In this document: in pieces, positions 837 through 14,480 of the stretch
Layout: every line of letters begins with the position of its first letter
How positions within the stretch are numbered: position 1 is the first letter of the stretch
Source: Candidatus Chloroploca mongolica
GTDB lineage: Bacteria > Chloroflexota > Chloroflexia > Chloroflexales > Chloroflexaceae
Direction of reading: 5' to 3'
Length of the DNA: 64,000 nucleotides
Assembly: GCF_004762035.2 (NCBI RefSeq)
Contig: NZ_SIJK02000004.1
Coordinates: 1 to 64,000 of the forward strand
Translations under genes and position numbers: made by a program
Notes under the pieces: generated by a model
What the model was told of the DNA's origin: nothing
Seen by the model: the letters and a program-made list of their open reading frames with translations, nothing else
Database searches by the model: none

Positions 837-2198
837 ATGAAACCAACCAGACCAGGCCAGCAATCAGGGTTCCTCTCACGGCGTCGCTTTTTGCGGCTCG
901 CTGGGGCATTGGCTGGCGGCTCCCTGCTTGCTGCCTGTGCATCACGTACGCCTGCTTCTCTCGGCGATACACCCTTCCTCCCTCGACTTGCAACCTGGCC
1001 GGCCGGGCGGCGGGCGGCGGTCGCTTTTACCTTCGATTGGGAAACGGCGATGGGAGGCCTGGTTCATTCGCGTTCGATTGGCGATCCAAATGTTGATCAA
1101 GACTATCTGCTGCGCGCCCGGCGTATGCGCGAGGGCCTTGCGACAACCATGGCTATCTTTGCCCCACTCGCGATCCGGGCGACCTATTATGCGACGGGCT
1201 ACAATTTTTTGCGCGGCAACCGCGAGCAGCGTCAGTTCCTCGGCAATCCGATCTTTCCCTGGGCGACCCAGGCCAATGGCTGGACTTCGGATCGCTGGAC
1301 GACAACGCCCTGGTTTGCCGATGACCCCTTTGGCACGGTTGAGTCCCATCCCGAGTGGTATTTTGGGGATCTGATTGAGCCGTTGCGTGAAGCCGGGCAT
1401 ACGATTGAGAGCCATACCTTTAGCCATTTCCACGGCGGCCTTGTTGATCCAGTGACCTGGCGCCTTGATCTCCAGACGTGGAATAACCTTGCGGCAGAAC
1501 GGGGTGTGCCCCCCGCTCGTTCGCTCGCCTTTCCCTGGAGTAGTAGCGCAGGTATGAGCGATGCTTCGTGGGATGAATTGGAATTGGCAGGCATCACCAG
1601 TGTGACTCGTCTCAGTAACCAGGCCCAGTATAGTCTCTGGGAGGTTGATCAAGACGGGGTTGTGCTCCATCCGCGCCCATGCTGGTTGCCTGGACGTGAG
1701 GGCCGCATGATGGCGTGCCCCGATTTTTACCTGACGGTATCGCGCACAAGCCTCGCCCTGGTGCAAATTGAACGAGCCGTCGAGACTGGTGGTATGATAG
1801 ACTTCTGGGCGCATACCGAAGAGGTGGTTAGCGCTGAACAGATTGCTTCCTGGCAACGGGTGGCTACCCGCGTGGCGAATGATATCCGCCTCTGGGTTGC
1901 ACCATTAGATGAGCTTGCGACATGGTCTGCGGCTGTTGCCGAAGTACGTGTTGAGGCTGATGCGCTTGATGCGCAGCGTGGCGATCTTCATCTGCAACTC
2001 ACCAATCCAACGCGAACCGCTTTATCTGGCCTGACGCTGCATGTGCCAGCGGCAACGCAGCAGGTTTTTGTCGAAGATGTCGAGCTTGAAACTTTGCGTG
2101 GGCGGTTGTCGTGGCGGATGGGTTGGTGGCCCGCCGCCGCCCTGGTCACGCTCGATCTCCCTGCGGAAACAGTACTACGTATGCGGATAGTAACGTGA
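837..2198 (+). CDS. Tat-exported lipoprotein polysaccharide deacetylase (NodB/CE4-like)
   Basis: Expected to remove N- or O-acetyl groups from a polysaccharide outside the cytoplasmic membrane. The start at 837 gives an N-terminus SRRRFLRLAG (twin-arginine signal, residues 14-23) followed by a lipobox LAAC with the lipidated cysteine at residue 34. The NodB-type core shows FTFDWE (Asp67) and SHTFSHFH with His193 and His197, the usual metal-binding histidine pair. The second aspartate of the classical TFDD motif is replaced by Trp, with Glu next, similar to the FDVE variant known in some exopolysaccharide deacetylases. The last 85 or so residues form a separate beta-rich tail. Its stop overlaps the next start (GTGA), so it is translationally coupled to the exporter permease. 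An upstream in-frame ATG at 720 would overlap the previous gene and bury the signal peptide. Confidence 0.82.
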   Translation: MKPTRPGQQSGFLSRRRFLRLAGALAGGSLLAACASRTPASLGDTPFLPRLATWPAGRRAAVAFTFDWETAMGGLVHSRSIGDPNVDQDYLLRARRMREGLATTMAIFAPLAIRATYYATGYNFLRGNREQRQFLGNPIFPWATQANGWTSDRWTTTPWFADDPFGTVESHPEWYFGDLIEPLREAGHTIESHTFSHFHGGLVDPVTWRLDLQTWNNLAAERGVPPARSLAFPWSSSAGMSDASWDELELAGITSVTRLSNQAQYSLWEVDQDGVVLHPRPCWLPGREGRMMACPDFYLTVSRTSLALVQIERAVETGGMIDFWAHTEEVVSAEQIASWQRVATRVANDIRLWVAPLDELATWSAAVAEVRVEADALDAQRGDLHLQLTNPTRTALSGLTLHVPAATQQVFVEDVELETLRGRLSWRMGWWPAAALVTLDLPAETVLRMRIVT

Positions 2199-4063
2199 AT
2201 TTCTTTGATCGTCTTGCTCTGCTCAATCGAGTTGTCCTGGGCTTACGGCTCTATCAATGGCTCTGGGTGCTGCTTTCCGTAGTGGGTGCTCTTGCCGTTG
2301 CCGTGCCGCGGGTACTCGCGCAGCCGGTTGTCTATTATGCGACGGCGCAGACCCATTTTGATCTCGAGCGCTATGGCGCGATCTATAATCCGGTTGGCCC
2401 TAATGTGACTGGCCTGAGCATTGCGATCGGCGATGCCAATGAGGTCTTGCGTCAGCGCGCCTTTGCCCGTGGCGATGTGCGCTTTGGGCTGCCTAATTAT
2501 CGGGTTGATTTCATTCCTGACGAGCCTGGCGTGGTGCTGGTGCGCGGCGTTGGGTCAACCGCAAGTGACGCACAGGCTCTTGCAAATGCTGGGGCCGAAG
2601 AACTGGTTCGCCAGATTCGTGCCGCCGGTGGCCGCGAGATCCTGCGCAATATGCTTGGTTGGGAGCTCTGGTTGTCTACCTCGCCTGAGGCTACGCCCAC
2701 TGAGCCTGATGCGTTTGCGCAGTTGCTGCGCCAGATTATTCGCTCTCAGGCATTTCCGATGTCACGCGAGCTTGAGCCCTTTGCGACGCCTCGCGATCTG
2801 GCGACCCTCCCTGAAGAGGAACTCCAGGATGTGGCTCGTGCGCTCGAAGCGCGCTACGATCTCTGGCGTTTTGCCATCAATACGCGCAATGCGACCCTCG
2901 ATGCCCTCTGTGGTACCGCCGGGATCAATGGTACTGAAGCCCGCGAGACTGCGTTGGTGACCTGTGCAGCGACGAATCCCGTTGCTGGCGCTGAGCTCGC
3001 CGAGCGTGATCGCGCCATTGTGCGCCTCCGCATCATTGAGGCAACGCTCAACTATGTCGTCGTGACCTATGATGTACGGTTTGATCCAACGTCCCCCGCT
3101 AGTGTCTGGGCAGTTCCGGCACCCCTGCCGGAAGCCTCTGAGCCACGGTATGTTCCCCATTTGATCGCCCTCGCGACCGTCTTTGGCCTCACCTTTGGAG
3201 TCACAGGGGTTGCTTTTGAGCGGAGTGCCGGGATTACCTCCAAAGCTGTTGAGCTCTGGAGCTATCGTGAACTGATTCGCAACCTTGCCCTCCGCGATCT
3301 CCGCACGCGCTATAAAGGCAGTGCGCTTGGCTACCTCTGGACGCAACTAGCCCCCCTGGGGATGATGCTGGTCTATGTGATTGTTTTTAGCCTGCTGCTG
3401 CCTAGTAGCATCGCCATGTTTCCGGTCTTTATTATTGTCGCGCTCTTGCCCTGGAACTATACCGCCGAGTCGATCATCGGTGGTACCCGCAGCATCATTG
3501 ACAACGCGTCTTTGATCAAAAAGGTCTACTTTCCTCGCGAGGTTTTGCCGCTGGTGACGGTCTTTTCGAGTCTGATCAACTTTGTGCTCTCGTTGCCGAT
3601 GATGTTTCTGGTGATGGCGGTGGTGCAGTTGACGACTATCGGGCGCCTCAATTTTGCCTGGTCGTTTGCCTATTTGCCGGTGCTTATGCTTATCCAGACG
3701 ATCATGCTTGTGGGTTTTGCCATGCTGCTCGGCTCGGCGGCGGTCTTCTATCGTGATGTTGTCCACCTTATCGGCATCATCATGAATATCTGGTTCTTCC
3801 TGACGCCAATTATCTATCCGCTTGGGGTCTTTGGCGAAGGATTAGCGGTTCGCCTGGTGCGCTGGTTCAATCCGATGGCGTCATTGATCGAATTTTATCG
3901 TGAAATTCTGTATGGCAATGTCGTTGCCGTTGGGCAGATCCCGACGCCCGCACTCCCTGCGTTGAGCAGCGTTTTACGCGTGAGTGTGATGGCGCTGGTG
4001 ATTCTCGTGGTTGGTTACTGGGTCTTTCAGCGCGTTAGCCGCAATTTTGGGGAAGAAATTTGA
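2195..4063 (+). CDS. ABC-2 glycan export permease fused to an N-terminal Wzz-like extracytoplasmic domain
   Basis: A 622-residue membrane protein in two parts. Residues 1-45 hold one membrane helix, residues about 45-315 a large soluble domain, and a second helix follows at about 318-340. This two-helix bracket around a periplasmic domain is the layout of Wzz-type chain-length regulators. From about residue 345 the protein is a normal ABC-2 (TagG/KpsM/Wzm type) permease with the family opening YRELIRNLALRDLRTRYK, six predicted helices and the late FFLTPIIYP segment. Usual Wzm/TagG permeases are about 260-280 residues, so the N-terminal half is additional. The GTG start at 2195 overlaps the previous stop as GTGA, and its own stop overlaps the TTG start of the ATPase gene. 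The permease assignment is firm; the chain-length role is inferred from topology. Confidence 0.85.
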   Translation: MNFFDRLALLNRVVLGLRLYQWLWVLLSVVGALAVAVPRVLAQPVVYYATAQTHFDLERYGAIYNPVGPNVTGLSIAIGDANEVLRQRAFARGDVRFGLPNYRVDFIPDEPGVVLVRGVGSTASDAQALANAGAEELVRQIRAAGGREILRNMLGWELWLSTSPEATPTEPDAFAQLLRQIIRSQAFPMSRELEPFATPRDLATLPEEELQDVARALEARYDLWRFAINTRNATLDALCGTAGINGTEARETALVTCAATNPVAGAELAERDRAIVRLRIIEATLNYVVVTYDVRFDPTSPASVWAVPAPLPEASEPRYVPHLIALATVFGLTFGVTGVAFERSAGITSKAVELWSYRELIRNLALRDLRTRYKGSALGYLWTQLAPLGMMLVYVIVFSLLLPSSIAMFPVFIIVALLPWNYTAESIIGGTRSIIDNASLIKKVYFPREVLPLVTVFSSLINFVLSLPMMFLVMAVVQLTTIGRLNFAWSFAYLPVLMLIQTIMLVGFAMLLGSAAVFYRDVVHLIGIIMNIWFFLTPIIYPLGVFGEGLAVRLVRWFNPMASLIEFYREILYGNVVAVGQIPTPALPALSSVLRVSVMALVILVVGYWVFQRVSRNFGEEI

Positions 4064-5310
4064 GCCCTGTCATTGAATTCAACCAGGTTAGCAAGCGCTT
4101 TGTCTTGCACAAAGATCAGCGCAAGACCGTGCAAGAGCGGGTGATTGGGCTGGTGCGCCCGCGGCCGCCTGGCGATGTCTTCTGGGCGTTGCGTGATGTT
4201 GATTTTGTTGTTCACGAAGGGCAGTCGCTGGGCCTGGTTGGGCATAATGGGGCCGGCAAGAGCACGGCGCTCAAGTTGATTACGCGGATTCTCGAGCCAA
4301 CAAGTGGGCGCGTGCGTACCCGTGGGCGCATTGCAGCGCTGCTTGAGCTGGGGAGCGGCTTTCATCCCGAGTTGAACGGGCGGGACAATGTCTTTCTCTA
4401 CGGGTCGCTGATGGGGATCGGGCGGCGCGAGATGGAACGCAAGCTCGAAGAGATTGTTGATTTTGCTGATATCGGCCCCTTCATTGATACCGAGATCAAG
4501 CACTATTCTTCGGGTATGTATACGCGCCTCGCCTTCGCTGTTGCGACCGCAGTTGATCCTGATATCTTGATCACCGACGAGGTGCTGGCTGTTGGCGACG
4601 AGGCGTTCCAGCGCAAATGCATGGAACGCATTTATGGTTTTCGACGGGCTGGCAAGACGATCATCTTTGTCTCGCACGCCCTCGAAGTCGTGCGCTCGCT
4701 CTGCGATGTGGCCGTCTGGCTTGACCACGGTGAACAGCGCGCCGATGGCCCCGCAGGCATGGTCATTGATGCCTATCTCGCTGAGGTCAACCGGAAAGAA
4801 AAGATTCGCCTCGAGCACGAGCGTACCCGTGAGGGTGAGGAGAGCGAGGATGCTTCACCAGCGACCGAGAGCCTCTTTCGGCGGGGAACACGCGAAGTTG
4901 AGGTTGTTCGTGTTCAATTGCTTGATGAGACCGGTGAAGAACGGGCTGTCTTTCACACCGGAAAATCTTTGACAATACGGATACATTACGAGGCCCACGA
5001 GCCGATCACCGAGCCGGTGTTTGGGGTGGGTATCTACCACGAGAGCGGGATCTGGATCAGTGGCCCCAATACCGGGTTTGACAGTGTTGCAATCCCACGT
5101 ATCATGGGCCAGGGTTTTCTTGATTACACCGTCAACGATCTGCCTCTCTTGACCGGTCGCTATAGCCTTAGTGTTGCGGTCGTGGATACTACCCAGTTGC
5201 ATGTCTTTGACCTGCATGATCGGCTCTATCAGATTGTTGTGCATAATGATGCCGGACGTGAGCGTTATGGAATGCTGGCGTTGCGAGGCACTTGGCGTTG
5301 TGATGCGTGA
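4060..5310 (+). CDS. ABC transporter ATP-binding protein with C-terminal Wzt-type glycan-recognition domain
   Basis: ATPase subunit of the polysaccharide exporter. Walker A is GHNGAGKST (about residues 60-68), the signature region is HYSSGM (about 148) and Walker B is DILITDEV (about 168). Residues about 270-400 form an extra beta domain like Wzt_C, which in O-antigen exporters binds the finished end of the glycan. Such a domain suggests export of a chain with a recognisable terminal modification; the methyltransferase domain in the next gene could supply one. The start is TTG at 4060, overlapping the permease stop as TTGA. Total length of 416 residues fits Wzt rather than the shorter KpsT. 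Confidence 0.9.
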   Translation: MSPVIEFNQVSKRFVLHKDQRKTVQERVIGLVRPRPPGDVFWALRDVDFVVHEGQSLGLVGHNGAGKSTALKLITRILEPTSGRVRTRGRIAALLELGSGFHPELNGRDNVFLYGSLMGIGRREMERKLEEIVDFADIGPFIDTEIKHYSSGMYTRLAFAVATAVDPDILITDEVLAVGDEAFQRKCMERIYGFRRAGKTIIFVSHALEVVRSLCDVAVWLDHGEQRADGPAGMVIDAYLAEVNRKEKIRLEHERTREGEESEDASPATESLFRRGTREVEVVRVQLLDETGEERAVFHTGKSLTIRIHYEAHEPITEPVFGVGIYHESGIWISGPNTGFDSVAIPRIMGQGFLDYTVNDLPLLTGRYSLSVAVVDTTQLHVFDLHDRLYQIVVHNDAGRERYGMLALRGTWRCDA

Positions 5311-5324
5311 GAAGGAGCAGCGGG

Positions 5325-8300
5325 ATGTCGGAACAGAATCCGCAGAGCCTGTACGATAAGTTCTATTTTGCGACAGGCTGCGGAAGACCGTATGAGCGTG
5401 ATGATCACTGGACGAATTTTTTTGGTGAGATTGCCGACGAAATCGTTGCCACGATTGCTCCCAGCGATGCCCTTGATGCAGGCTGTGCTCTCGGGTTACT
5501 GGTGGAACAATTGCGTGAGCGCGGGGTCGCCGCCGAGGGAATTGATATCTCGGAGTTTGCGATTGCCAATGCTCCCGAAACAGTCAAGCCCTATGTCCGG
5601 GTTGGCTCGGTGGCTGAGCCATTTGAACGTCGTTATGACTTGATCATCTGCATCGAAGTCCTCGAACATATGCCAAAGGAAGACTCCGAGCGTGCGGTGG
5701 CGAATTTCTGCGCCCACAGCGACGATATCCTCTTCTCCTCTTCGCCGTTTGATTATAAAGAAGTCACCCACTTCAACGTCAATCCCCCTGAATACTGGGC
5801 TTCCCTCTTTGCGCGTCACGGTTTCTACCGTGATGTTGATTTTGATGCGTCCTTCATTACGCCCTGGGCGGTACGCTTCCGCCGTCGCAATGAACCGACA
5901 GCACGCATTGTGCGTGATTATGAGCGCCGTTTCTGGGAATTATGGAAAGAGACGACCGACCTGCGGACGTTGAACCTGGAACAGCGCGATCAGTTGCGCG
6001 ATCTCAATGCGTTGTATGTGCAGGCCCAGCAGAACTATGAGGACGAACAGCGTCGTCATTACGAGACTTTCCAGCGTTATGAGGACGAACAGCGTCGTCA
6101 TTACGCGACCCTCCAGCATTATAATGAAGCGTCGCAGCAGAACCAGGAATTCGACGCACAACTTCGCGATTTGCGGCAACAAGTCGCTGCACTCAAGCAG
6201 AGCAAAGCCCTTTTGCGCCAGCAGCGTGACCTGATCCGGGCGATGGCGCGTGAGGATCTTGCCGATCTCCGCACTGATCCAACGCTGAGTCAAACCCAGG
6301 CCTATGCCCATCACCTTGAAGCTGAGATCACGCATCGCGATGAGTATATCGCCTGGCTTGAAAGTCTGGTGCGGGCCTTTGAGCAGGGACGGTTGATGTC
6401 ACTGATGCGACGTTTGCGCCGGAGTGGCACGATCCTCCCGCCTGCTTCTTCGCCTGCTCCTGCGCTTCCACCGCCGCCACCATCACTGCCTGAAGCGCCT
6501 CCTGCACCAGTGGCCTTGCCTTCTGATCCTGCGTCGGTCTATGCACGCTGGATCGCGGCCCATGAGCCCGATGCGGTTACGTTGATTGCCCAGCGGCAGC
6601 AGGGGCATCACCTGGCCTATCGTCCCTTGATCAGCATGGTGACGCCGGTCTATAATCCTGCTCCAGAAGCCCTCAAGGCGATGCTTGCGTCGGTCTTTAT
6701 GCAGACCTATGATCGCTGGCAGTTGTGTCTCGCCGACGCTTCGACCGAGCCAGAGGTGCGTGCGTTGCTCCAGCAGTTTGCTTCAACTGATCCCCGCGTA
6801 CGCCTGACGACCCTTGAACAGAATGCGGGTATTAGCGCCAATTCCAACGCTGCCCTTGCCCTTGCCACCGGTGAGTTCGTTCTGCTCCTTGATCACGATG
6901 ATACACTGGCCCCCGAGGCGCTCTTTCAGGTGGTGCAAACCCTCAATGCCCATCCAGAGGCTGATATCGTCTACTATGATGAAGATAAGCTCAGTGAGGA
7001 CGCGACGACACGCCATAGTCCCTGGTTCAAACCGTCGGCCTGGTCGCCGGATCTGTTGCTCTCGACCAACTATCTGATGCACGGGGTCTTCCGGCGGAGC
7101 CTGGTCGAAGAGTCCGGGCGCTTCAATCCGGCTACCGACGGTGCCCAGGATTGGGATCTGGCGTTGCGTTGCAGTGAGCGTACCAGGGCGATCTACCATC
7201 TTCCGCGGGTGCTCTACCACTGGCGTCAGATGCCTGGTTCAGCTTCGCGTGATGCCAATGCCAAGCCGTGGGCGCTGGTAGGCCAGGAACGTGCGCTGCG
7301 CGATCATCTTGCGCGTGGTCTCGGTTCTTCCGCCGAGGTGGTGCGGCTCAATGTGAGTGACCTCCGGGTGCTCTGGCCTGTTTCAGATAAACTTGTTTCG
7401 ATTATTATTCCCAACCGCGATCGCTACGAGTTGCTGCATGCCTGTCTCAGTTCGATCTTTGCCGCCACAACCTATCCCAACTATGAGGTGATCATTGTTG
7501 ATAATGGCTCGGTTGATGGGCGGACGCTGGCCTATTATGAGCAACTCAAGGCCGACGGTCGGGTGCGCGTCGTTCCGCTTGCGGAAGCCTTCAACTGGTC
7601 GCGGGCCAACAATCTTGGAGTCGCCGAGGCGCGGGGCGATCTGCTGCTCTTCCTCAATAATGATACCGAGGTGCGTGCCGGTGACTGGTTGCACGAACTG
7701 GTTGGCTGGGCCGAGCGCCCCGAGGTTGGGGTGGTTGGCTGTAAGCTGATCCGCCCTGATGGCACGACCCAGCACGCGGGGATCGCGATTGGTGTGGAAG
7801 GCCACGGGAGCCACCTCTTTGATGGGGATGTGACCCCGACCTATGGCCCTTTTGGTTCCTCTGAGTGGTATCGCGATCTGCTGGCGCTTACGGGTGCCTG
7901 TATGATGATGCGCCGCGATGTTTTTGAAGCCATCGGTGGCTTTGATGAACGCTACCGTGTCGGTTATAGTGATCTGACCTTCTGTCTTGCCGCCCATCAG
8001 CACGGTCTGCGGGTTGTTTATACCCCGCACGCCTCGTTGTTGCACCACGAAGGTGCATCACGCGGTTTTGCTTTGCCCTTTGCTGATATCCTGCGGGCCA
8101 CGCTTGAGATGTTGCCACACATTCTGGCAGGCGATCCCTACTTTAGCCCCCATCTTTCGCCGGTGCAGCGCCGTCCCGCGATTGCCGATCCCGCCGGTGA
8201 AAAGATCATTGAGCGGATGGCGCTGCTTGTTTCCACGTTTCACCTGACCAAGACGTATGATCCCGCCCAACTGGCTGCAGTTGCCGAGCAATTGCTCAAG

Positions 8301-9452
8301 CCACGTCTTCCTGCGCAGCCGGTAGGATCAAGCGCACCACGACTCCTCGTCTGTTCGCACGAGCTCTCATTTACCGGAGCACCGTTGATCCTCTTCCAAC
8401 TGGCCCAACACTTTGCCGCGCAGGGTTATGAGGTGACGATGGCTTCGGTCAAACCCGGGCCACTCGGGGCTGTGGTCGAGGCCGCCGGCATCCCGGTCGA
8501 GGTTAATCCATTGCTCTATGACGATGCCCTGGTTGCAGCTACCCTGGTGCGTGACTATGATCTGGTGCTGGTCAATACGATCCTCGGCTATCGGGTGATC
8601 CTGGCTGCCCACGTGATGGAGGTTCCCTCGGCCTGGTGGATCCACGAGTCGCGCTCGGGCTATGCGTTGATGGAAAGCGAGGCGGCCCCGCGTGAGGCGT
8701 TGTCCCTTGCCGATCGCTTGATCTTCCCCGCCGCAGCGACGGCGGCCCTCTATCGCGGCTTTACCTCGCGTCAACTTCCCACGCCGCTGCCGTATGGAGT
8801 TCCCGACCTGCCCTTTGAGCCTGACCGGCCACGCGATCCTGAAGAACCGCTGATGGTGCTGGTGATCGCCAGTATGGAGACCCGCAAAGGCCAGGATCTT
8901 GTGGTCAAAGCCTTTCAGCAGTTGCCCCCGGCGTTGCGTGCGCAGTTTGAACTCTATTTCATCGGTGGGATTCACGATCCACACTATTATCGCCAGGTAC
9001 GCGCCGATCTCGCGGCTGAACCGAATGTCTATTTTATTGGGTTGCTCAACCGCGATCAGACCCTGACCTATCTGCGCCAGGCCGATATCTTTGTTCTGCC
9101 TTCGCGTGACGAGGTGTTGCCCGTCTCGATCCTTGAGGCGATGGCCTGTGGCAAGGCGATGGTCGTGACTGATGTTGGGGGTGTGACCGAGGCAGTTCGC
9201 CATGAACAAGAAGGCCTTGTCGTACCGCCTGATGACCCGGATCAACTGGCTGAGAGTTTGGCCCGCTTGATCAGTGCGCCCGAGCTCCGTCAACGCCTCG
9301 GTCGTGCCGCACGTGTACGCTACGAAGAGCGTTTTACCGCTGCGACCTTTGCGCAAGCGATGGATGCGCTTGTGCGTGATCTTTTACCCCCTGAACGTGC
9401 GTTGCCCGCTGGTGAAGATGCTGATGCAGAGACTCAGGTACCCCAGGAGTAA
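5325..9452 (+). CDS. Multidomain methyltransferase / coiled-coil / GT2 / GT2 / GT4 protein
   Basis: A 1375-residue protein likely to build and cap or modify the exported glycan on the cytoplasmic face. Residues about 40-160 are a class I SAM methyltransferase (DALDAGCALG). Residues about 205-345 are coiled coil and include a 14-residue tandem repeat YEDEQRRHYETFQR / YEDEQRRHYATLQH. A proline-rich linker follows (about 370-400). The first GT2 domain runs about 435-680 (DHDDT), the second about 690-930 (NNDTE), and a GT4 domain with a C-terminal EAMACGKAMVVTDVGG element fills about 1005-1365. The order resembles WsaE-type trifunctional rhamnan enzymes with an added GT4. The ATG at 5325 is chosen because AAGGAG stands seven bases before it; a GTG at 5307 would overlap the previous gene. 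Confidence 0.88.
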   Translation: MSEQNPQSLYDKFYFATGCGRPYERDDHWTNFFGEIADEIVATIAPSDALDAGCALGLLVEQLRERGVAAEGIDISEFAIANAPETVKPYVRVGSVAEPFERRYDLIICIEVLEHMPKEDSERAVANFCAHSDDILFSSSPFDYKEVTHFNVNPPEYWASLFARHGFYRDVDFDASFITPWAVRFRRRNEPTARIVRDYERRFWELWKETTDLRTLNLEQRDQLRDLNALYVQAQQNYEDEQRRHYETFQRYEDEQRRHYATLQHYNEASQQNQEFDAQLRDLRQQVAALKQSKALLRQQRDLIRAMAREDLADLRTDPTLSQTQAYAHHLEAEITHRDEYIAWLESLVRAFEQGRLMSLMRRLRRSGTILPPASSPAPALPPPPPSLPEAPPAPVALPSDPASVYARWIAAHEPDAVTLIAQRQQGHHLAYRPLISMVTPVYNPAPEALKAMLASVFMQTYDRWQLCLADASTEPEVRALLQQFASTDPRVRLTTLEQNAGISANSNAALALATGEFVLLLDHDDTLAPEALFQVVQTLNAHPEADIVYYDEDKLSEDATTRHSPWFKPSAWSPDLLLSTNYLMHGVFRRSLVEESGRFNPATDGAQDWDLALRCSERTRAIYHLPRVLYHWRQMPGSASRDANAKPWALVGQERALRDHLARGLGSSAEVVRLNVSDLRVLWPVSDKLVSIIIPNRDRYELLHACLSSIFAATTYPNYEVIIVDNGSVDGRTLAYYEQLKADGRVRVVPLAEAFNWSRANNLGVAEARGDLLLFLNNDTEVRAGDWLHELVGWAERPEVGVVGCKLIRPDGTTQHAGIAIGVEGHGSHLFDGDVTPTYGPFGSSEWYRDLLALTGACMMMRRDVFEAIGGFDERYRVGYSDLTFCLAAHQHGLRVVYTPHASLLHHEGASRGFALPFADILRATLEMLPHILAGDPYFSPHLSPVQRRPAIADPAGEKIIERMALLVSTFHLTKTYDPAQLAAVAEQLLKPRLPAQPVGSSAPRLLVCSHELSFTGAPLILFQLAQHFAAQGYEVTMASVKPGPLGAVVEAAGIPVEVNPLLYDDALVAATLVRDYDLVLVNTILGYRVILAAHVMEVPSAWWIHESRSGYALMESEAAPREALSLADRLIFPAAATAALYRGFTSRQLPTPLPYGVPDLPFEPDRPRDPEEPLMVLVIASMETRKGQDLVVKAFQQLPPALRAQFELYFIGGIHDPHYYRQVRADLAAEPNVYFIGLLNRDQTLTYLRQADIFVLPSRDEVLPVSILEAMACGKAMVVTDVGGVTEAVRHEQEGLVVPPDDPDQLAESLARLISAPELRQRLGRAARVRYEERFTAATFAQAMDALVRDLLPPERALPAGEDADAETQVPQE

Positions 9453-9453
9453 T

Positions 9454-10887
9454 ATGACACGTGTTTTGATGGTGAGTACCGATGTGGTCGGTCCATCGAT
9501 GGCGGGGCCCGGTATTCGTGCGCTCGAATTGGCTCGCGTGCTCGCACGCACACACGAGGTGACACTTGCGATCCCCGCAGGGAGTAGCCCTGCTTCGCTG
9601 CCATATGCGGTTGTTCACTATCAGCCAGGGCGCATTGGTGATCTCGCGGCTGCTGTCGCGGCTGCCGAGGTGATCGTTGGTCAGGGGTTTGTCTTCACCA
9701 GCCATCCTGAATTGCTGGCTGCCTCACAACCGATTGCCATTGACCTTTACGATCCTCAGATCCTCGAGAGTCTGCATCTGGTGCGCCAGGTCGATCCGGT
9801 GACGGCGGCTATTGAGGCTCAGGGTTTTGTTGTTCGTACCAGGGCGCAACTCGAGCGCGGTGACTTCTTTTTCTGTGCGACTTCGGTGCAACGCGATTAT
9901 TGGCTCGGGGCTTTGAGTGTACTTGGCCGTATGACGCCAACCCTGGTGGCTGAGGCTGATGATGATCTGCGGAGTTTGATCGATCTCGTGCCGAGTGGTC
10001 TCGATCCTCAACCGCCACGCCGTGACGAGCCGGTGTTGCGTGGGGTGCATCCAGCGATCCCCGAGGATGCGTTTCTCTTGATCTGGGCCGGTGGTCTCTG
10101 GGATTGGTTCGATCCGCAGCTTGTCGTACGTGCCGTTGCGCAACTGCGTGAGACGTGTCCCCAACTCAGGCTCTGCTTCTTTGCTGGTGCTCGCCCTAAT
10201 CCTGATGGCCCGCCGATTGTGACGCCCGAGGGTGTTGCCGTTCGCGAGTTGGCCGCTCACCTTGGGGTGCTCAACGAGACGGTGATCATGCTTGATACCT
10301 GGGTGCCCTATGCTGAACGTGGTCGCTATCTCAGCGAAGCGGACGTTGGCGTCTCGGCGCATATGCCTGGGATCGAGACCCATTTTGCGTTCCGAACTCG
10401 CTTGCTCGATTATCTCTGGGCGCGCCTGCCGATCCTCTGTTCGCTGGGTGATAGTCTGGGGGAGCAGATCGCGCAGGCGGGGGGCGCGATCTGTGTTGCG
10501 CCCTACGATCTTGATGGCTGGTGCGCGGCCCTTCATCAGCTCTATCACAATCGTGTGCAATGCAGTACCATGGCTGCGTCAAGCGATGGCGTGGCTCGTA
10601 CGTTCACCTGGGACGCGGTTGCGCAACCGCTGGTGGCTTTCTGTGATGCACCGCGCCGCACGGCACCCGATCATGTTGCAACAGAACGCCCTGCCCCAGT
10701 TGGGCTTGATCCGCAGGTGCTCGCGGCTAAACAAGCGCAACTCGCCGCGCTTGATCACTATGCGCGGCAGCTTGACACCGCCTTGAACCAGAAAAATCAG
10801 CACATTGTCCACCTCGAACGCCATATCGAGCGGATCGAGATGGGCCGTGTGATGCGCTTGCTCAAGCTTTTCACCCGACAGCGCTAG
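9454..10887 (+). CDS. Glycosyltransferase, GT4-like, with C-terminal coiled coil
   Basis: A 478-residue protein with a GT-B type layout. The N-terminal domain begins TRVLMVSTDVVGPSMAGPGI, a variant of the GT4 acceptor-side loop; the C-terminal nucleotide-sugar domain carries LIWAGGLWDWFDPQLVVRA and TWVPYAERGRYLSEADVGVS. The usual EX7E motif is not obvious. The tail from about residue 420 is predicted coiled coil and may dock other enzymes of the cluster. ATG at 9454 is one base after the previous stop and has AGGAG upstream. It is a paralogue of the next gene (shared MAGPGIRA.ELAR motif). Sugar and linkage cannot be read from the sequence. Confidence 0.82.
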   Translation: MTRVLMVSTDVVGPSMAGPGIRALELARVLARTHEVTLAIPAGSSPASLPYAVVHYQPGRIGDLAAAVAAAEVIVGQGFVFTSHPELLAASQPIAIDLYDPQILESLHLVRQVDPVTAAIEAQGFVVRTRAQLERGDFFFCATSVQRDYWLGALSVLGRMTPTLVAEADDDLRSLIDLVPSGLDPQPPRRDEPVLRGVHPAIPEDAFLLIWAGGLWDWFDPQLVVRAVAQLRETCPQLRLCFFAGARPNPDGPPIVTPEGVAVRELAAHLGVLNETVIMLDTWVPYAERGRYLSEADVGVSAHMPGIETHFAFRTRLLDYLWARLPILCSLGDSLGEQIAQAGGAICVAPYDLDGWCAALHQLYHNRVQCSTMAASSDGVARTFTWDAVAQPLVAFCDAPRRTAPDHVATERPAPVGLDPQVLAAKQAQLAALDHYARQLDTALNQKNQHIVHLERHIERIEMGRVMRLLKLFTRQR

Positions 10888-10967
10888 CCCCTCGTTGTTC
10901 GTTCCGTTGATCTGTGTGGCCTCGGCCGACTCTGGCCTGGAGCGATCAGCCTGGCTTTTCTAACGTT

Positions 10968-12539
10968 ATGCAGTTGTTGATGTTGAGCCACGATGTTGTA
11001 GGATCGCGCATGGCCGGGCCCGGTATCCGCGCCTGGGAGCTTGCCCGTGCCCTGGCGAGCTATGTGCCAACGACCCTGGTTGCGCCCAATCAGATTGATC
11101 TGACGCCACCACCTGGTTTGCAACTCGGTTCTTATACTTTGGGTGAGCCAGCTAGTTTTGCTCCCTGGCTTGCTGGTGCGACCGTTGTGTTGCTCAACGG
11201 GCATTTGCTTGAGGCGCATCCTGAACTGGCTGAGCTCGATGTGCCTTTGATCATCGATCTCTACGATCCCACCATGCTCGAAAATCTTGAGCTTTTCCGC
11301 ACTGCCTCGGCGGCGGAACGCTCATTGCGCCACCAGCGTGATGTGGTGCTTTTCCAGCGTCAGTTAGCCGCCGGGGATTGTTTTCTCTGCGCCACCGAGC
11401 GTCAGCGTGATCTCTATATCGGTGCTTTGCTCCTCGCTGGCCGGGTGACGCCCACCTTGACTGACCACGATCCCGATCTTCGTCGCCTCATTGATGTGGT
11501 GCCGTTTGGTCTCCCTGCCGCTGCTCCTGTTCGCCAGGGGCCAGGGTTGCGCGGTGTGGTGCCCGGCATTGGCCTAGATGATCTGCTGCTGCTCTGGAGT
11601 GGCGGCCTGTGGGATTGGATGGATCCGCAGACGCTGGTCGCGGCGATGCCGGCGGTTGCCGAGGCGCTGCCTCAGGTGCGGCTGGTCTTTCTGGCGGGGC
11701 GGCACCCTGGGCACGCGCTGCCAATGCAGGCAGGGGCGCAGGCACGTACGCTTGCGGCACGCCTTGGTCTGCTTGATCGCCACGTCTTTTTCTACGACGA
11801 ATGGGTGCCCTATGCCCAACGCGCCGATCTGCTGCTTGAGGCGGATCTCTTTGTCTCGTTGCATCGAGACCACCTCGAGACCCGCTATGCGGCGGTGCGT
11901 TCGCGGGTGCTTGATCATTTCTGGGTGGGTCGCCCCAGTCTCTTGAGCGACGGCGATCCAGCGGCGGAATTGATCCGTGCCGAAGGCGTTGGTCTGGTTG
12001 TTCCCCCTGAAGATCCTGCTGCCGTCAGCGCGGCCCTTGTGCAGTTGCTTGAGGATGCTGAACTGCGGGCACAACAGGCGAGCCGGGCGCACGCCCTGGC
12101 GTCACGGTTGCAATGGGCTCACCTGATTGAGCCAATCCTGCGGTTTGTCCGTGAGCCTCGGCATACCCGAGTCCTCGTTCCCCTTCTCCGTGAGCCTGTC
12201 CGCCCGACGGTGGCTTCGCCGGTTGGGCGACGCAATGAAGCCGTGCGATTGCTGGAAGAACGCTGGCACCAGTTGCAGCAACCTGCCCCTGGCACGCCCT
12301 TTTTGGCCCACCTCGGCAGACGCCTGGCGCATCTGCTGGTGCGCCCCGTCATGCCGCTGCTCGCAGCGCATATTCAGGTTGTCTATGCCCAGGCCGAAGT
12401 AACCGATCATCTGGCTCGGGTTGGCAAAACCCAGATCGAAGCCTTTGCGATGCAACTCCAGGGCCTCGAAGACGCTGTGTTGCGCCTGGAGGCGCTGCAA
12501 CGCGGGGAGGTTCCACCTCCCCCGATCAGTAAGGAGTAA
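10968..12539 (+). CDS. Glycosyltransferase, GT4-like, paralogue of the preceding gene
   Basis: A 523-residue GT-B type enzyme. The N-terminus MQLLMLSHDVVGSRMAGPGI matches the previous gene, and the nucleotide-binding half carries LLWSGGLWDWMDPQTLVAAM and EWVPYAQRADLLLEADLF. The C-terminal 90 residues contain an amphipathic helical segment. The ATG at 10968 is chosen because it places the Rossmann strand at the N-terminus; an upstream ATG at 10914 adds a stretch with no similarity to the paralogue. There is an 80-base gap to the previous gene without a convincing terminator, so cotranscription is likely. Acceptor and donor are unknown. Confidence 0.8.
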   Translation: MQLLMLSHDVVGSRMAGPGIRAWELARALASYVPTTLVAPNQIDLTPPPGLQLGSYTLGEPASFAPWLAGATVVLLNGHLLEAHPELAELDVPLIIDLYDPTMLENLELFRTASAAERSLRHQRDVVLFQRQLAAGDCFLCATERQRDLYIGALLLAGRVTPTLTDHDPDLRRLIDVVPFGLPAAAPVRQGPGLRGVVPGIGLDDLLLLWSGGLWDWMDPQTLVAAMPAVAEALPQVRLVFLAGRHPGHALPMQAGAQARTLAARLGLLDRHVFFYDEWVPYAQRADLLLEADLFVSLHRDHLETRYAAVRSRVLDHFWVGRPSLLSDGDPAAELIRAEGVGLVVPPEDPAAVSAALVQLLEDAELRAQQASRAHALASRLQWAHLIEPILRFVREPRHTRVLVPLLREPVRPTVASPVGRRNEAVRLLEERWHQLQQPAPGTPFLAHLGRRLAHLLVRPVMPLLAAHIQVVYAQAEVTDHLARVGKTQIEAFAMQLQGLEDAVLRLEALQRGEVPPPPISKE

Positions 12540-12544
12540 CGCCG

Positions 12545-13543
12545 GTGCGGGTGGCTGTGTTGGTCTTGAGTTGGAACGCTGCCGATGCTCTGTGCGCCTG
12601 CCTCGCCGCTGTGTTGCGCCAGCAGCGCCCTGCCGACAAGCTTCTGGTTGTGGATAATGCCTCTGCTGATGCGAGTGTCGCCCGGGTTGCCACCACCTTC
12701 CCCGAGGTTGAAATCCTGGTGAACGCACGCAATCTTGGCTTTGCCGGCGGCATGAATGTGGGTCTGCGCTCCCTGCTCGCCGCCTCGCCCCCGTTTGACG
12801 TTGCTGTCCTGCTTAACCAGGATACCCTGGTTGATCCAGGCTGGTTGGCCGGTTTGCTGGCTCCGCTCGATGAGCCTCAGGTTGCAGCCGTTGGCAGCAA
12901 GATTCGCTACCCTGATGGACGTCTGCAGCATGCCGGGGCTTTGCTTGAGTGGCCGTTGGGCCTGGTGCGCCATGTCGGCCTGGGCGAGCCTGATCAGGGC
13001 CAGTATGAGTCGCTGCGTGACTATGAATTGCTGACCGGCGCGGCACTGGCGTTGCGCCTGTCGGCCCTTGTTGAGGTTGGTCTGTTTGATGAAGGCTTCT
13101 GGCCTGCGTATTACGAGGACGTCGATCTCTGCTGGCGACTCGCCCGGGCTCGCTACCGACTCGTCTATGCACCAGCGGCAACCCTCACCCATCAAGAGTC
13201 GCATTCGACACGCGACGAAGTCACCCGCATGACCTACTATCACCGCGGTCGTCTACGGTATCTCTTCAAACGCATCACGGTCGATCAGTTAACCAGAAGC
13301 TTTCTGCCTGCCGAAATGACCTACCTGGCGACCAGGATTGCCTCACCCGAAGCGCGCGCCCTCCGGCGAGCATATGCTGACATCCGTGACACGGTGGCCG
13401 AACTCTGTGCGGCGCATGCCTTCTTCCATCCAGATGAGTCTGATATCAGCACGCATCTACCAGCTATCCTTGCTCGTGTGCAACACACCATCGCCCAGGT
13501 CTACGATCGGCAGGCGCACGAAGCGGCTACTGCCTTGGGTTGA
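12545..13543 (+). CDS. GT2 family glycosyltransferase (rhamnosyltransferase-like)
   Basis: A 332-residue GT-A enzyme. It opens with VAVLVLSWNAADALCACLAA, has VVDNASAD for nucleotide binding, the metal-binding variant LNQDT, and EDVDLCWRLARARYRLVYAP near the end of the catalytic domain. This is the arrangement seen in WbbL/rhamnosyltransferase-like GT2 proteins. The start is GTG at 12545, with AAGGAG at 12531-12536 in the tail of the preceding gene. It is the last plus-strand gene of this run before a gene of opposite orientation. Confidence 0.85.
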   Translation: MRVAVLVLSWNAADALCACLAAVLRQQRPADKLLVVDNASADASVARVATTFPEVEILVNARNLGFAGGMNVGLRSLLAASPPFDVAVLLNQDTLVDPGWLAGLLAPLDEPQVAAVGSKIRYPDGRLQHAGALLEWPLGLVRHVGLGEPDQGQYESLRDYELLTGAALALRLSALVEVGLFDEGFWPAYYEDVDLCWRLARARYRLVYAPAATLTHQESHSTRDEVTRMTYYHRGRLRYLFKRITVDQLTRSFLPAEMTYLATRIASPEARALRRAYADIRDTVAELCAAHAFFHPDESDISTHLPAILARVQHTIAQVYDRQAHEAATALG

Positions 13544-13556
13544 GCCTGGACTGTAA

Positions 13557-14480
13557 TCAGATAGTACGTAAAATCATAATAAATTCAAGCTCGTTTTTGA
13601 TTGTCATTTCAGTATCAAATAACAATGCAAAATCGCGCCTTAAAATTATCAGAAGCTCAAGTAATTCAAATTGCGTCCAGGCGTGATAGTGGATGCTGTA
13701 ATCCATCCCCAACAGAAAAGCGACGTGCTGGGCAATCGCTTCTTCCCCTTCGACTTTATGGACAAATTGAGTCCACTCTTCAAAATGTTGATGCTTTGAC
13801 CAGGTCGGTCCTTCGGCATGATCACGTAACAGATGTTCAATGCTGGTTGACGGGCGTTCATGGTCAAAGGTAAAGCGTTTATCGGGAACAGCCAGGTAGA
13901 GGATGCCTCCGCGCTTCAAGACACGTAACAGATTTTTGATCGTGCCAATGGGATCCTCGCAATGTTCAAGGAAATGATTGGCAATCACAAAATCTTGCGA
14001 CTCACTGCCAATGGTTGTTAATGTTTCACCGTTGTCAATAATGTCTGGTTCAACCAGATCTAGATGGGCCAGTTCAGCATAGTGTGTACGCAAATCGGCG
14101 ACTGACATCCGATCCACATATTTGACATGGGCTGTAGGCGGAACACGTAACGGTTGATTGAGTGCCCCGATCTCAAGTCCTTCACCGTGGAGGTACCGCG
14201 ATGCGGCGAGCCAACGCCCCATCTCGAAAGGTGTGTTAGGTGCAGGCTCGGCAGGTGGGGCTTCTTCGCTGGGTGGGGCTTCTTCGCTGGGTGGGGCTTC
14301 TTCGCTGGGTGGGGCTTCTTCGCTGGGTGGGGGTGGCTCGGCGATTGAAACGGTGCTTGATAGAACTGGGGGTGGTATCGAAGCTGGGCCTGATGGAACC
14401 GGCATTGCAACAGGCTCAACTCCTGCTAGCGCACGGAGGCTTGCACGGAGGCGTTTCTTGACTCCATTCAATCCTGACAT
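13557..14480 (-). CDS. SAM-dependent methyltransferase with repeat-bearing N-terminal linker
   Basis: A 307-residue protein. Residues about 45-75 are Pro/Glu-rich and contain tandem copies of the six-residue unit EEAPPS, encoded by an 18-bp repeat. The remainder is a class I methyltransferase fold: EGLEIGALNQPL near the start, IIDNGETLTTIGSESQDFVI, and HFLEHCEDPIGTIKNLLRVL with GGILYLAVPDKRFTFDHERP after it. This subtype is frequent in glycan clusters. It is transcribed against its neighbours and is visibly richer in A/T than they are, which may mean separate acquisition. GGAGGAAG stands about ten bases before the ATG at 14480. Confidence 0.8.
   Translation of the reverse strand: MSGLNGVKKRLRASLRALAGVEPVAMPVPSGPASIPPPVLSSTVSIAEPPPPSEEAPPSEEAPPSEEAPPSEEAPPAEPAPNTPFEMGRWLAASRYLHGEGLEIGALNQPLRVPPTAHVKYVDRMSVADLRTHYAELAHLDLVEPDIIDNGETLTTIGSESQDFVIANHFLEHCEDPIGTIKNLLRVLKRGGILYLAVPDKRFTFDHERPSTSIEHLLRDHAEGPTWSKHQHFEEWTQFVHKVEGEEAIAQHVAFLLGMDYSIHYHAWTQFELLELLIILRRDFALLFDTEMTIKNELEFIMILRTI
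14254..14325. repeat. Four exact tandem copies of an 18-bp unit
   Basis: The plus-strand unit GGTGGGGCTTCTTCGCTG occurs four times without change (14254-14325), followed by a partial copy. It lies in the methyltransferase gene and encodes its Pro/Glu linker. The unit is a multiple of three, so copy-number change would lengthen or shorten the linker without breaking the frame. Confidence 0.9.

Follow-up and report, generated by a model that had tools for sequence, protein, structure and literature searches.

A methyltransferase–coil–glycosyltransferase protein as candidate polymerase and chain terminator beside an ABC glycan exporter in Candidatus Chloroploca mongolica

The window, the whole stretch of 64,000 nucleotides that was analysed (contig NZ_SIJK02000004.1 of Candidatus Chloroploca mongolica, positions 1 to 64,000), carries one uninterrupted frame that runs from an ATG at 5325 to a stop codon at 9450-9452 and encodes 1375 residues (Table 1). 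It lies directly behind the genes for a Wzm permease and a Wzt bearing a carbohydrate-binding domain. An in-frame GTG at 5307 overlaps the Wzt stop codon, but for most homologous methyltransferases the alignment starts with the residue that position 5325 encodes, or close to it. Read from the N-terminus, the protein begins with a SAM methyltransferase (MT), which a long helical spacer joins to a pair of GT2 domains and a final GT4 domain. The motifs are intact, and the Pfam matches [Methyltransf_23, residues 44-133; Glycos_transf_2, twice; Glyco_trans_4_5, 1006-1147; Glycos_transf_1, 1169-1330] all exceed the cut-off. The original prediction, a five-part protein in the order of WsaE with an extra GT4 and an adjoining Wzt-type recognition domain (Wzt_C, 4867-5307), is confirmed in each of these respects: MT and two glycosyltransferase (GT) domains follow one another in one chain, to which coil and GT4 are added. 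The SAM-binding residues are present, the motif D.GCA.G ... G.DIS being invariant in all 17 aligned MTs. No kinase domain was found between MT and coil; the MT ends at about residue 224, the helix starts at 218 and no Pfam match falls between them.

Table 1. Coordinates of the five-part gene, its parts and its neighbours in the window.
Feature	Position	Strand	Basis
Wzz/PCP-like extension at the N-terminus of Wzm (soluble part between two TM segments)	2195..3238	+	profile comparisons
Wzm ABC-2 permease part	3239..4063	+	Pfam
Wzt: ATPase and Wzt_C carbohydrate-binding domain (domain 4867-5307)	4060..5310	+	Pfam, alignment
Five-part protein, 1375 aa	5325..9452	+	frame, Pfam, orthologues
Type I SAM-dependent methyltransferase domain, residues 1-224	5325..5996	+	Methyltransf_23, conserved motifs, motif columns
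Long helical spacer (coil), residues 218-314	5976..6266	+	helix from low-confidence model; sequence analysis
42-bp tandem repeat inside coil, 2.1 copies; unit of 14 aa, two heptads	6036..6122	+	
43-aa tail module, residues 325-368, ends 'EQGRLMSLMRRLRR'	6297..6428	+	
Pro-rich linker, predicted disordered, residues 369-401	6429..6527	+	AlphaFold2 model, sequence
First GT2 domain, residues 426-680, DHDD and QDWD motifs	6600..7364	+	Pfam, motif columns
Second GT2 domain, residues 686-940, NNDTE and YSD motifs	7380..8144	+	Pfam, motif columns
GT4 (GT-B) domain, residues 1001-1355, E-x7-E motif	8325..9389	+	Pfam, motif columns
GT4-like protein ending in tail module (10756-10884)	9454..10887	+	Pfam, tail comparison
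GT4-like protein	10956..12539	+	Pfam
GT2 protein	12545..13543	+	Pfam

The design has been published for ORF6 of Klebsiella pneumoniae O7 and for WsaE; measured against what those accounts describe, the lack of a recognisable kinase and the extra GT4 are new here. ORF6 (MT-kinase-CBM-coiled coil-GT2-GT2) is a demonstrated terminator and shares the N-terminal MT, the central coiled coil and two C-terminal GT2 domains in one chain; its cluster contains wzm and wzt, and its relatives occur with and without GT modules (PMC11231755). As described there, a kinase and a CBM separate the MT of ORF6 from its coil, its caps are methyl-phosphate and it lacks a GT4; the MT of the window's protein passes directly into the coil, and the chain carries a GT4 besides. 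In WsaE of Geobacillus stearothermophilus, compared here by its description in a review, an MT precedes two glycosyltransferase domains, and the genes run wzm-wzt-wsaE with overlapping codons; its MT has been suggested to terminate the chain by a 2-O-methyl cap to which Wzt binds, and the description gives no GT4 and mentions no coil (PMC2943079). WbdD of E. coli O9a/O8, a terminator of an ABC-exported glycan, is described as having an N-terminal MT, a C-terminal coiled coil and, in O8, a kinase-free form, but its polymerase WbdA is a separate protein (PMC3482155). Similarity of the MT to the WbdD chains in the PDB is not significant (E 0.29-0.40). A related arrangement is an MT-coil-GT2-GT2 protein on pRt1078 of Rhizobium tumorigenes (homologous MT, 36-37% identity; GT2-GT2, 39% overall), whose gene neighbours are rfbABCD and the genes for an ABC permease and an ATPase; unlike the window's protein it has no GT4, and the ATPase, at about 250 aa, is too short for a Wzt_C domain.

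With a probability of roughly 0.6, we read the protein as the polymerase and chain terminator of an ABC-exported surface glycan, a methyl cap licensing export. The GT2, GT2 and GT4 domains would add repeat sugars onto a lipid carrier in the cytoplasm, coil and tail would keep the MT away from the GTs, making the capping of short chains less frequent, and the carbohydrate-binding domain of Wzt would read the cap before Wzm exports the chain. The sequences themselves establish the architecture, the motifs, the link between MT and Wzt across the order and the mutual exclusion of two MT types; the end cap, its reading by Wzt and the setting of length by the coil are inferred. In favour of the reading as a whole are the position of the type I MT (MT-I, the type of the five-part protein) directly behind Wzt, the substitution of a second type (MT-II), the pairing of MT with Wzt_C, a changed Wzt column at Ala348, whole-heptad repeats in the coil, a swap of coil and GT4, and the ORF6 precedent.

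Residues 225-312 contain neither Pro nor Gly, and the self-similarity of the coil is maximal at lags of 14 and 7. AlphaFold2, run on MT-coil with a two-sequence input (mean pLDDT 53; the MT is not modelled, and the helix call alone is usable), gives a helix at 218-314, a break, a helix at 320-353, a second break, a helix at 357-367 and a disordered Pro-rich linker at 368-401; with helices 218-314 and 320-353 as the coil, a low-confidence call, the MT (1-224) sits at its N-terminal, distal end, as in coiled-coil terminators of the WbdD, O7 ORF6 and WbbB kind. Hydrophobic periodicity near 3.45 exceeds that of shuffled sequences only nominally (71/2000 as high) and the MT domain, used as a control, scores as well (33/2000); it was discarded as evidence. 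A helix-like spacer is retained behind every intact type I MT in Chloroflexales, and in that sense the predicted conservation of the coil holds; it extends neither to sequence (across eight fused proteins, none of 100 coil columns is invariant) nor to length (54-141 residues over 24 MTs). Coils of fused proteins (80-141) are longer than most of those in stand-alone MTs (54-112), ten of which are short, with 54-65 residues between MT anchor and tail Gly. The repeats seen within the coil are in frame and comprise whole heptads (42 bp in two sister species, 21 bp in genome G037), and between sister species the coil, as a block, and the GT4 have been swapped while MT and GT2 domains were retained. 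A constant heptad register is absent: coil lengths modulo 7 are spread over the 24 proteins (remainder 2, nine; 6, five; 1, four; others, six), an observation that counts against the polymerase-terminator reading.

The repeats and the block swap agree with the molecular ruler originally predicted, and a coil acting as ruler is plausible; the tail module fits it less well. This 43-aa element has 46 carriers, of which 22 lack MT-I, many being glycosyltransferases without a terminator, a distribution that also speaks against the polymerase-terminator reading. It is internal in the five-part protein, C-terminal in most other carriers, and also ends the neighbouring GT4-like protein (9454-10887). 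Because so many carriers lack MT-I, assembly or membrane docking explains the tail as well as a ruler does. Coil and tail could then be a device that gathers the protein and the neighbouring GTs, chain length being set elsewhere, for example by the proportion of the enzymes to one another or by the Wzz-like portion of Wzm. We consider this unlikely, albeit the strongest of the alternatives. The tail shared with the neighbouring protein and the short coils of the ten stand-alone MTs favour it, as does the disordered linker of about 30 residues after the tail, since the spacing of coil and GTs need not be rigid; against it stand the longer coils of the fused proteins and, in the repeats seen, the whole-heptad shifts in coil length. 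A membrane-associated amphipathic helix at the coil end, such as WbdD has, gains little or no support: by hydrophobic moment (<5% of shuffles), tail windows are amphipathic in 0 of 45 cases at 18 residues and in 6 of 45 at 13 residues.

Gene content across 82 genomes links MT and Wzt_C throughout the order. MT-I occurs in 26 genomes and MT-II, a different MT family, in 30; the two types are in this survey mutually exclusive, occurring together in one of 55 MT-bearing genomes. Both Wzt_C and an MT are present in 52 genomes (of 61 with Wzt_C), Wzt_C alone in nine, an MT alone in three and neither in 18 (P = 7e-9); the same table by genus reads 27/2/1/4 (P = 0.0015). MT-I, fused or alone, lies directly behind Wzt in most MT-I-bearing genomes of Chloroflexaceae, and several loci that lack MT-I have MT-II, mostly with a coil and a GRVMRLL-like end, behind Wzt or close to it. 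The genomes with Wzt_C and neither MT are seven Chloroflexus-like ones, G030 and G050, and in genus g32 (type I MT) the MT and Wzt occupy separate loci; both observations weigh against the polymerase-terminator reading.

Nearly the whole of Aquifex aeolicus Wzt (Wzm-Wzt, PDB 8dku) can be aligned with the family of the window's Wzt (profile E 3.5e-87). Among 24 Wzt_C columns near-invariant in 51 MT-bearing genomes, one, otherwise Ala, is Ser or Thr in two of the three lineages that lack an MT, and it aligns with Ala348 of A. aeolicus Wzt, described as forming a wall of the pocket for the 3-O-methyl group (PMC9445017). Five control trios gave 1, 0, 0, 0 and 0 such columns; the finding was arrived at post hoc among four inspected pocket residues (Leu300, Thr346, Ala348 and Trp362), with just three MT-less lineages to compare. 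In the window's Wzt the equivalents of Thr346 and Ala348 are Ser and Ala, whereas Leu300 and the lid residue Trp362 are not kept, being Gly and Leu; W362L is reported to abolish binding in A. aeolicus Wzt (PMC9445017), and these losses are a further point against the polymerase-terminator reading. Coupling of the lid residue to MT type was rejected, as the position tracks lineage. Genome G012, which might have served to check the pocket column, is uninformative, its MT not lying beside Wzt and its frame breaking in the tail. Decorating MTs are frequent in glycan gene clusters. An MT that modifies internal sugars of an ordinary O-methylated glycan, with no part in termination or export, would be at ease with the missing Trp lid; such a role is made improbable by the co-occurrence of MT and Wzt_C throughout the order, by the mutual exclusion of the two MT types and by a pocket column that changes solely where both MTs are missing.

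Seven other Chloroflexales genomes hold five-part orthologues, among them a full-length copy in Candidatus Chloroploca sp. Khr17 that is 95% identical, and dN/dS against the nearest relative is 0.06-0.10 in every part save the Pro-rich linker; the protein is therefore not a product of chance. Other Chloroflexales have the same MT unfused, terminating after its spacer. That a stand-alone MT gene merely ran into a GT gene with no functional coupling is highly improbable given this purifying selection and similar fusions in 5 of 11 genomes outside Chloroflexales and in Rhizobium, even though fused and stand-alone forms are interspersed on the MT tree (five changes, at least two forced) and G343 encodes MT-coil and GT2-GT2 as a split pair of adjacent proteins.

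The least expected part of the locus is the putatively Wzz-like N-terminal extension of Wzm, which is specific to Chloroflexales; this exporter type was seen in no other order of the phylum sample. Profile comparison with Wzz gives a probability of 95.9% (E 5e-9; controls at most 1.3%), falling to 18% (controls at most 0.5%) when TM1 is removed, and Pfam Wzz matches 3 of 20 members (best E 0.005). A PDB profile search with the extension returned nothing significant, and its AlphaFold2 model (mean pLDDT 46), like that of MT-coil, is too poor for fold comparison. Tentatively, and with odds clearly against it, the locus may hold two physical length devices, an exchangeable cytoplasmic coil between capper and polymerase and a Wzz-like domain in the exporter.

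The polymerase-terminator reading brings into the Chloroflexota, here filamentous green bacteria, a coiled-coil type of terminator established for the O antigens of Gram-negative bacteria. The 24 natural spacer lengths behind one conserved MT, fused and unfused, make the ruler idea testable across cultured relatives, and two exclusive MTs together with an altered Wzt pocket residue amount to a testable prediction for cap recognition. A Wzz-like domain in an ABC exporter would, if true, newly connect two pathways that are as a rule kept apart, and two length devices in one locus would be a natural counterpart, with a nearly constant MT, of the ruler-length series built in the laboratory.

A single open frame encodes 1375 residues of the five-part protein, and the original prediction that a SAM methyltransferase (MT), two GT2 domains and an additional GT4 are combined in one protein is borne out by Pfam matches above cut-off. 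The Wzt-type recognition domain noted beside the gene is also present, as Wzt_C. The SAM-binding motif, which was to be checked, is intact in the window (LDAGCALG), as are DHDD and QDWD in GT2a, NNDTE and YSD in GT2b and E-x7-E in GT4, all of them catalytic motifs. Among the eight fused orthologues (window included), that of genome G039 (L092 5102-8899) deviates in the GT2b and GT4 motifs; its second GT2 lacks the acidic motif residues and its GT4 motif is altered, as if one domain were dead.

Features of the five-part gene and its neighbourhood
Feature	Position	Remarks
Polysaccharide-deacetylase-like protein	738-2198	upstream of Wzm; weak, below Pfam cut-off
Wzm N-terminal extension	2195-3238	TM-soluble-TM, 345 aa; ahead of permease
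Wzm	2195-4063	upstream of five-part gene; Pfam
Wzt with Wzt_C	4060-5310	upstream of five-part gene; Pfam
Five-part protein	5325-9452 (+)	single frame
Methyltransferase domain	residues 44-133	Pfam, above cut-off
Two Glycos_transf_2 domains		Pfam, above cut-off
GT4 pair of domains	residues 1006-1147, 1169-1330	Pfam, above cut-off
Tail module copies	6297-6428; 10756-10884	
Tail-bearing gene	9454-10887	next after five-part gene
GT4-like and GT2 genes		downstream of five-part gene; Pfam
Another methyltransferase	13557-14480 (-)	PPSEEA repeat close to its start

Three parts make up the spacer of the protein: a coil free of Pro and Gly, a tail of 43 residues and a Pro-rich linker. Across the eight orthologues none of 100 coil columns is invariant, against 7 of 44 in the tail. 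The original proposal was that the coil is a ruler setting the distance between capping MT and polymerase. Among relatives in the order, each intact MT of this family has a helix-like spacer behind it; measured between one constant position in the MT and the Gly of the tail, the length varies from 54 to 141 residues in 24 of 26 MTs (the tail of the other two being unreadable). Fourteen residues of the coil are duplicated through a 42-bp tandem repeat, both in the window and in its near relative Khr17, and 21-bp repeats occur in the coil of G037 and the linker of G032. Between the window and Khr17, dN/dS is 0.06-0.10 for every part but the linker, where the value of 2.1 has very few synonymous changes behind it. 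Compared at third positions with G014, from a sister species, the MT is 82-92% identical and the GT2s, over most of their length, 66-96%. Identity drops to 28-43% for coil plus tail and to 28-52% starting at residue 951, with flanking stretches 89-92% identical; coil and GT4 therefore appear to have been exchanged as blocks in one lineage, with MT and GT2s retained.

The tail is not confined to this protein. Its profile, run on 2820 frames (window plus 77 loci), identifies 46 proteins: 24 carry the MT family of the five-part protein (type I), with the tail C-terminal in 16 and internal in the eight fused ones, and 22 lack it, the tail being C-terminal in all (nine with a GT2b-type domain, 13 others). 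The consensus Y..LE..L..K..HI..LE..I..E.GR.MR.L closes many glycosyltransferases and methyltransferases in the studied loci. This sharing is the strongest point in favour of docking by coil and tail, as an assembly or membrane anchor, and against a pure ruler.

In a search of genome contigs the only full-length match is Candidatus Chloroploca sp. Khr17 (95% identity). Matches at E <= 1e-40 occur in 29 of 82 genomes of the order Chloroflexales, 26 of them including the MT part; GT parts alone are matched in G031 (at a contig end), G060 and G070. MT and GT2s share a frame in eight genomes, the window's included, and most remaining MT genomes have a stand-alone MT of ~285-400 aa ending after the spacer; G032 has both forms. 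The MT tree requires five changes of fused state, at least two forced by well supported branches. Beyond the order, type I MT is found in 11 genomes of a 301-genome phylum sample, fused to GT2-GT2 without GT4 in five; there the MT-to-GT2 stretch is 87-196 residues, with no clear coil in one (L216). In G343 the MT with its coil and the GT2-GT2 part are encoded by separate, adjoining frames.

Wzt_C is present in 61 of the 82 genomes, type I MT in 26 and an alternative family (type II) in 30, G003 alone having both; the family search gave no type II match in the window's genome. Several loci without type I have a type II MT near or behind Wzt, in most cases with a coil and a GRVMRLL-like end. Type II MTs with coil and basic tail replace type I near Wzt in L114, L117, L120, L136, L137, L144 and L147. 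By genome, Wzt_C and either MT occur together in 52, Wzt_C alone in nine, MT alone in three and neither in 18; by genus the counts are 27, 2, 1 and 4, and the association tests take account of kinship up to genus only. In G012 (L061) the type I MT lies away from Wzt, its frame broken inside the tail. In genus g32 (L124, L126-L129, L148-L152) GTs follow the extended Wzm, no Wzt_C protein adjoins it, and MT and Wzt_C are found in other loci.

The window Wzt aligns over almost its full length with that of A. aeolicus, whose methyl-pocket residues include Leu300, Thr346, Ala348 and Trp362 (PMC9445017); the equivalents are Gly, Ser, Ala and Leu. Surveyed in 60 of the 61 Wzt_C genomes (the G012 Wzt is cut at a contig end), the Ala348 equivalent is Ala in 51/51 MT-bearing genomes examined. 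Of the genomes with neither MT, seven Chloroflexus-like ones have Ser at this position, G050 has Thr and G030 retains Ala. No other of the 24 near-invariant columns is altered in two of the three lineages that lack an MT; for five control trios the corresponding counts were 1/22, 0/20, 0/20, 0/20 and 0/23. A link of the Trp362 position to MT type was rejected, as this residue varies by lineage.

Wzm is matched in 77 of the 82 genomes, some over the permease only, and is extended in most genomes of the order; the extension profile matched 28 of 301 phylum genomes, every one from the order. A Chloroflexales Wzz profile hits the extension with 95.9% probability (controls <= 1.3%), falling to 18% (controls <= 0.5%) when the first TM helix is removed, and Pfam Wzz gives weak matches in 3 of 20 members. 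By these comparisons the extension, a conserved part of Wzm restricted to the order in this sample, is putatively Wzz/PCP-like. Among the papers listed, in coverage that takes in few subscription journals, none was on a co-polymerase domain fused to an exporter.

Among plasmid records, the nearest relative of the GT2-GT2 part by identity is a S. fredii NGR234 protein (47.6% over 434-914), which adjoins dTDP-rhamnose genes; its own N-terminal MT is from a different Pfam family than that of the window. R. tumorigenes has an MT-coil-GT2-GT2 protein adjoining rfbABCD and an ABC transporter. RmlD-type reductases are present in the window's genome (the best at 129 kb on the same contig). Together these observations make a rhamnose-containing chain likely.

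Coiled-coil terminators are established for WbdD (PMC3482155) and Klebsiella O3, O4, O5, O7 and O12 (PMC11231755). The single chain of O7 ORF6 carries an MT, a kinase, a CBM and a coil followed by two GT2 domains, with relatives described from alpha- and gammaproteobacteria and cyanobacteria (PMC11231755), and WsaE has an MT and two GTs (PMC2943079). Among the papers listed, subscription journals being mostly outside the coverage, none was on a terminator of this kind in Chloroflexi. Unlike O7 ORF6 the window protein is kinase-free as far as its sequence tells, and it has an added GT4 compared with both O7 ORF6 and WsaE. The coiled-coil terminator design itself is already known; what is new here is a form with an added GT4 and no kinase seen in its sequence, in a different phylum.
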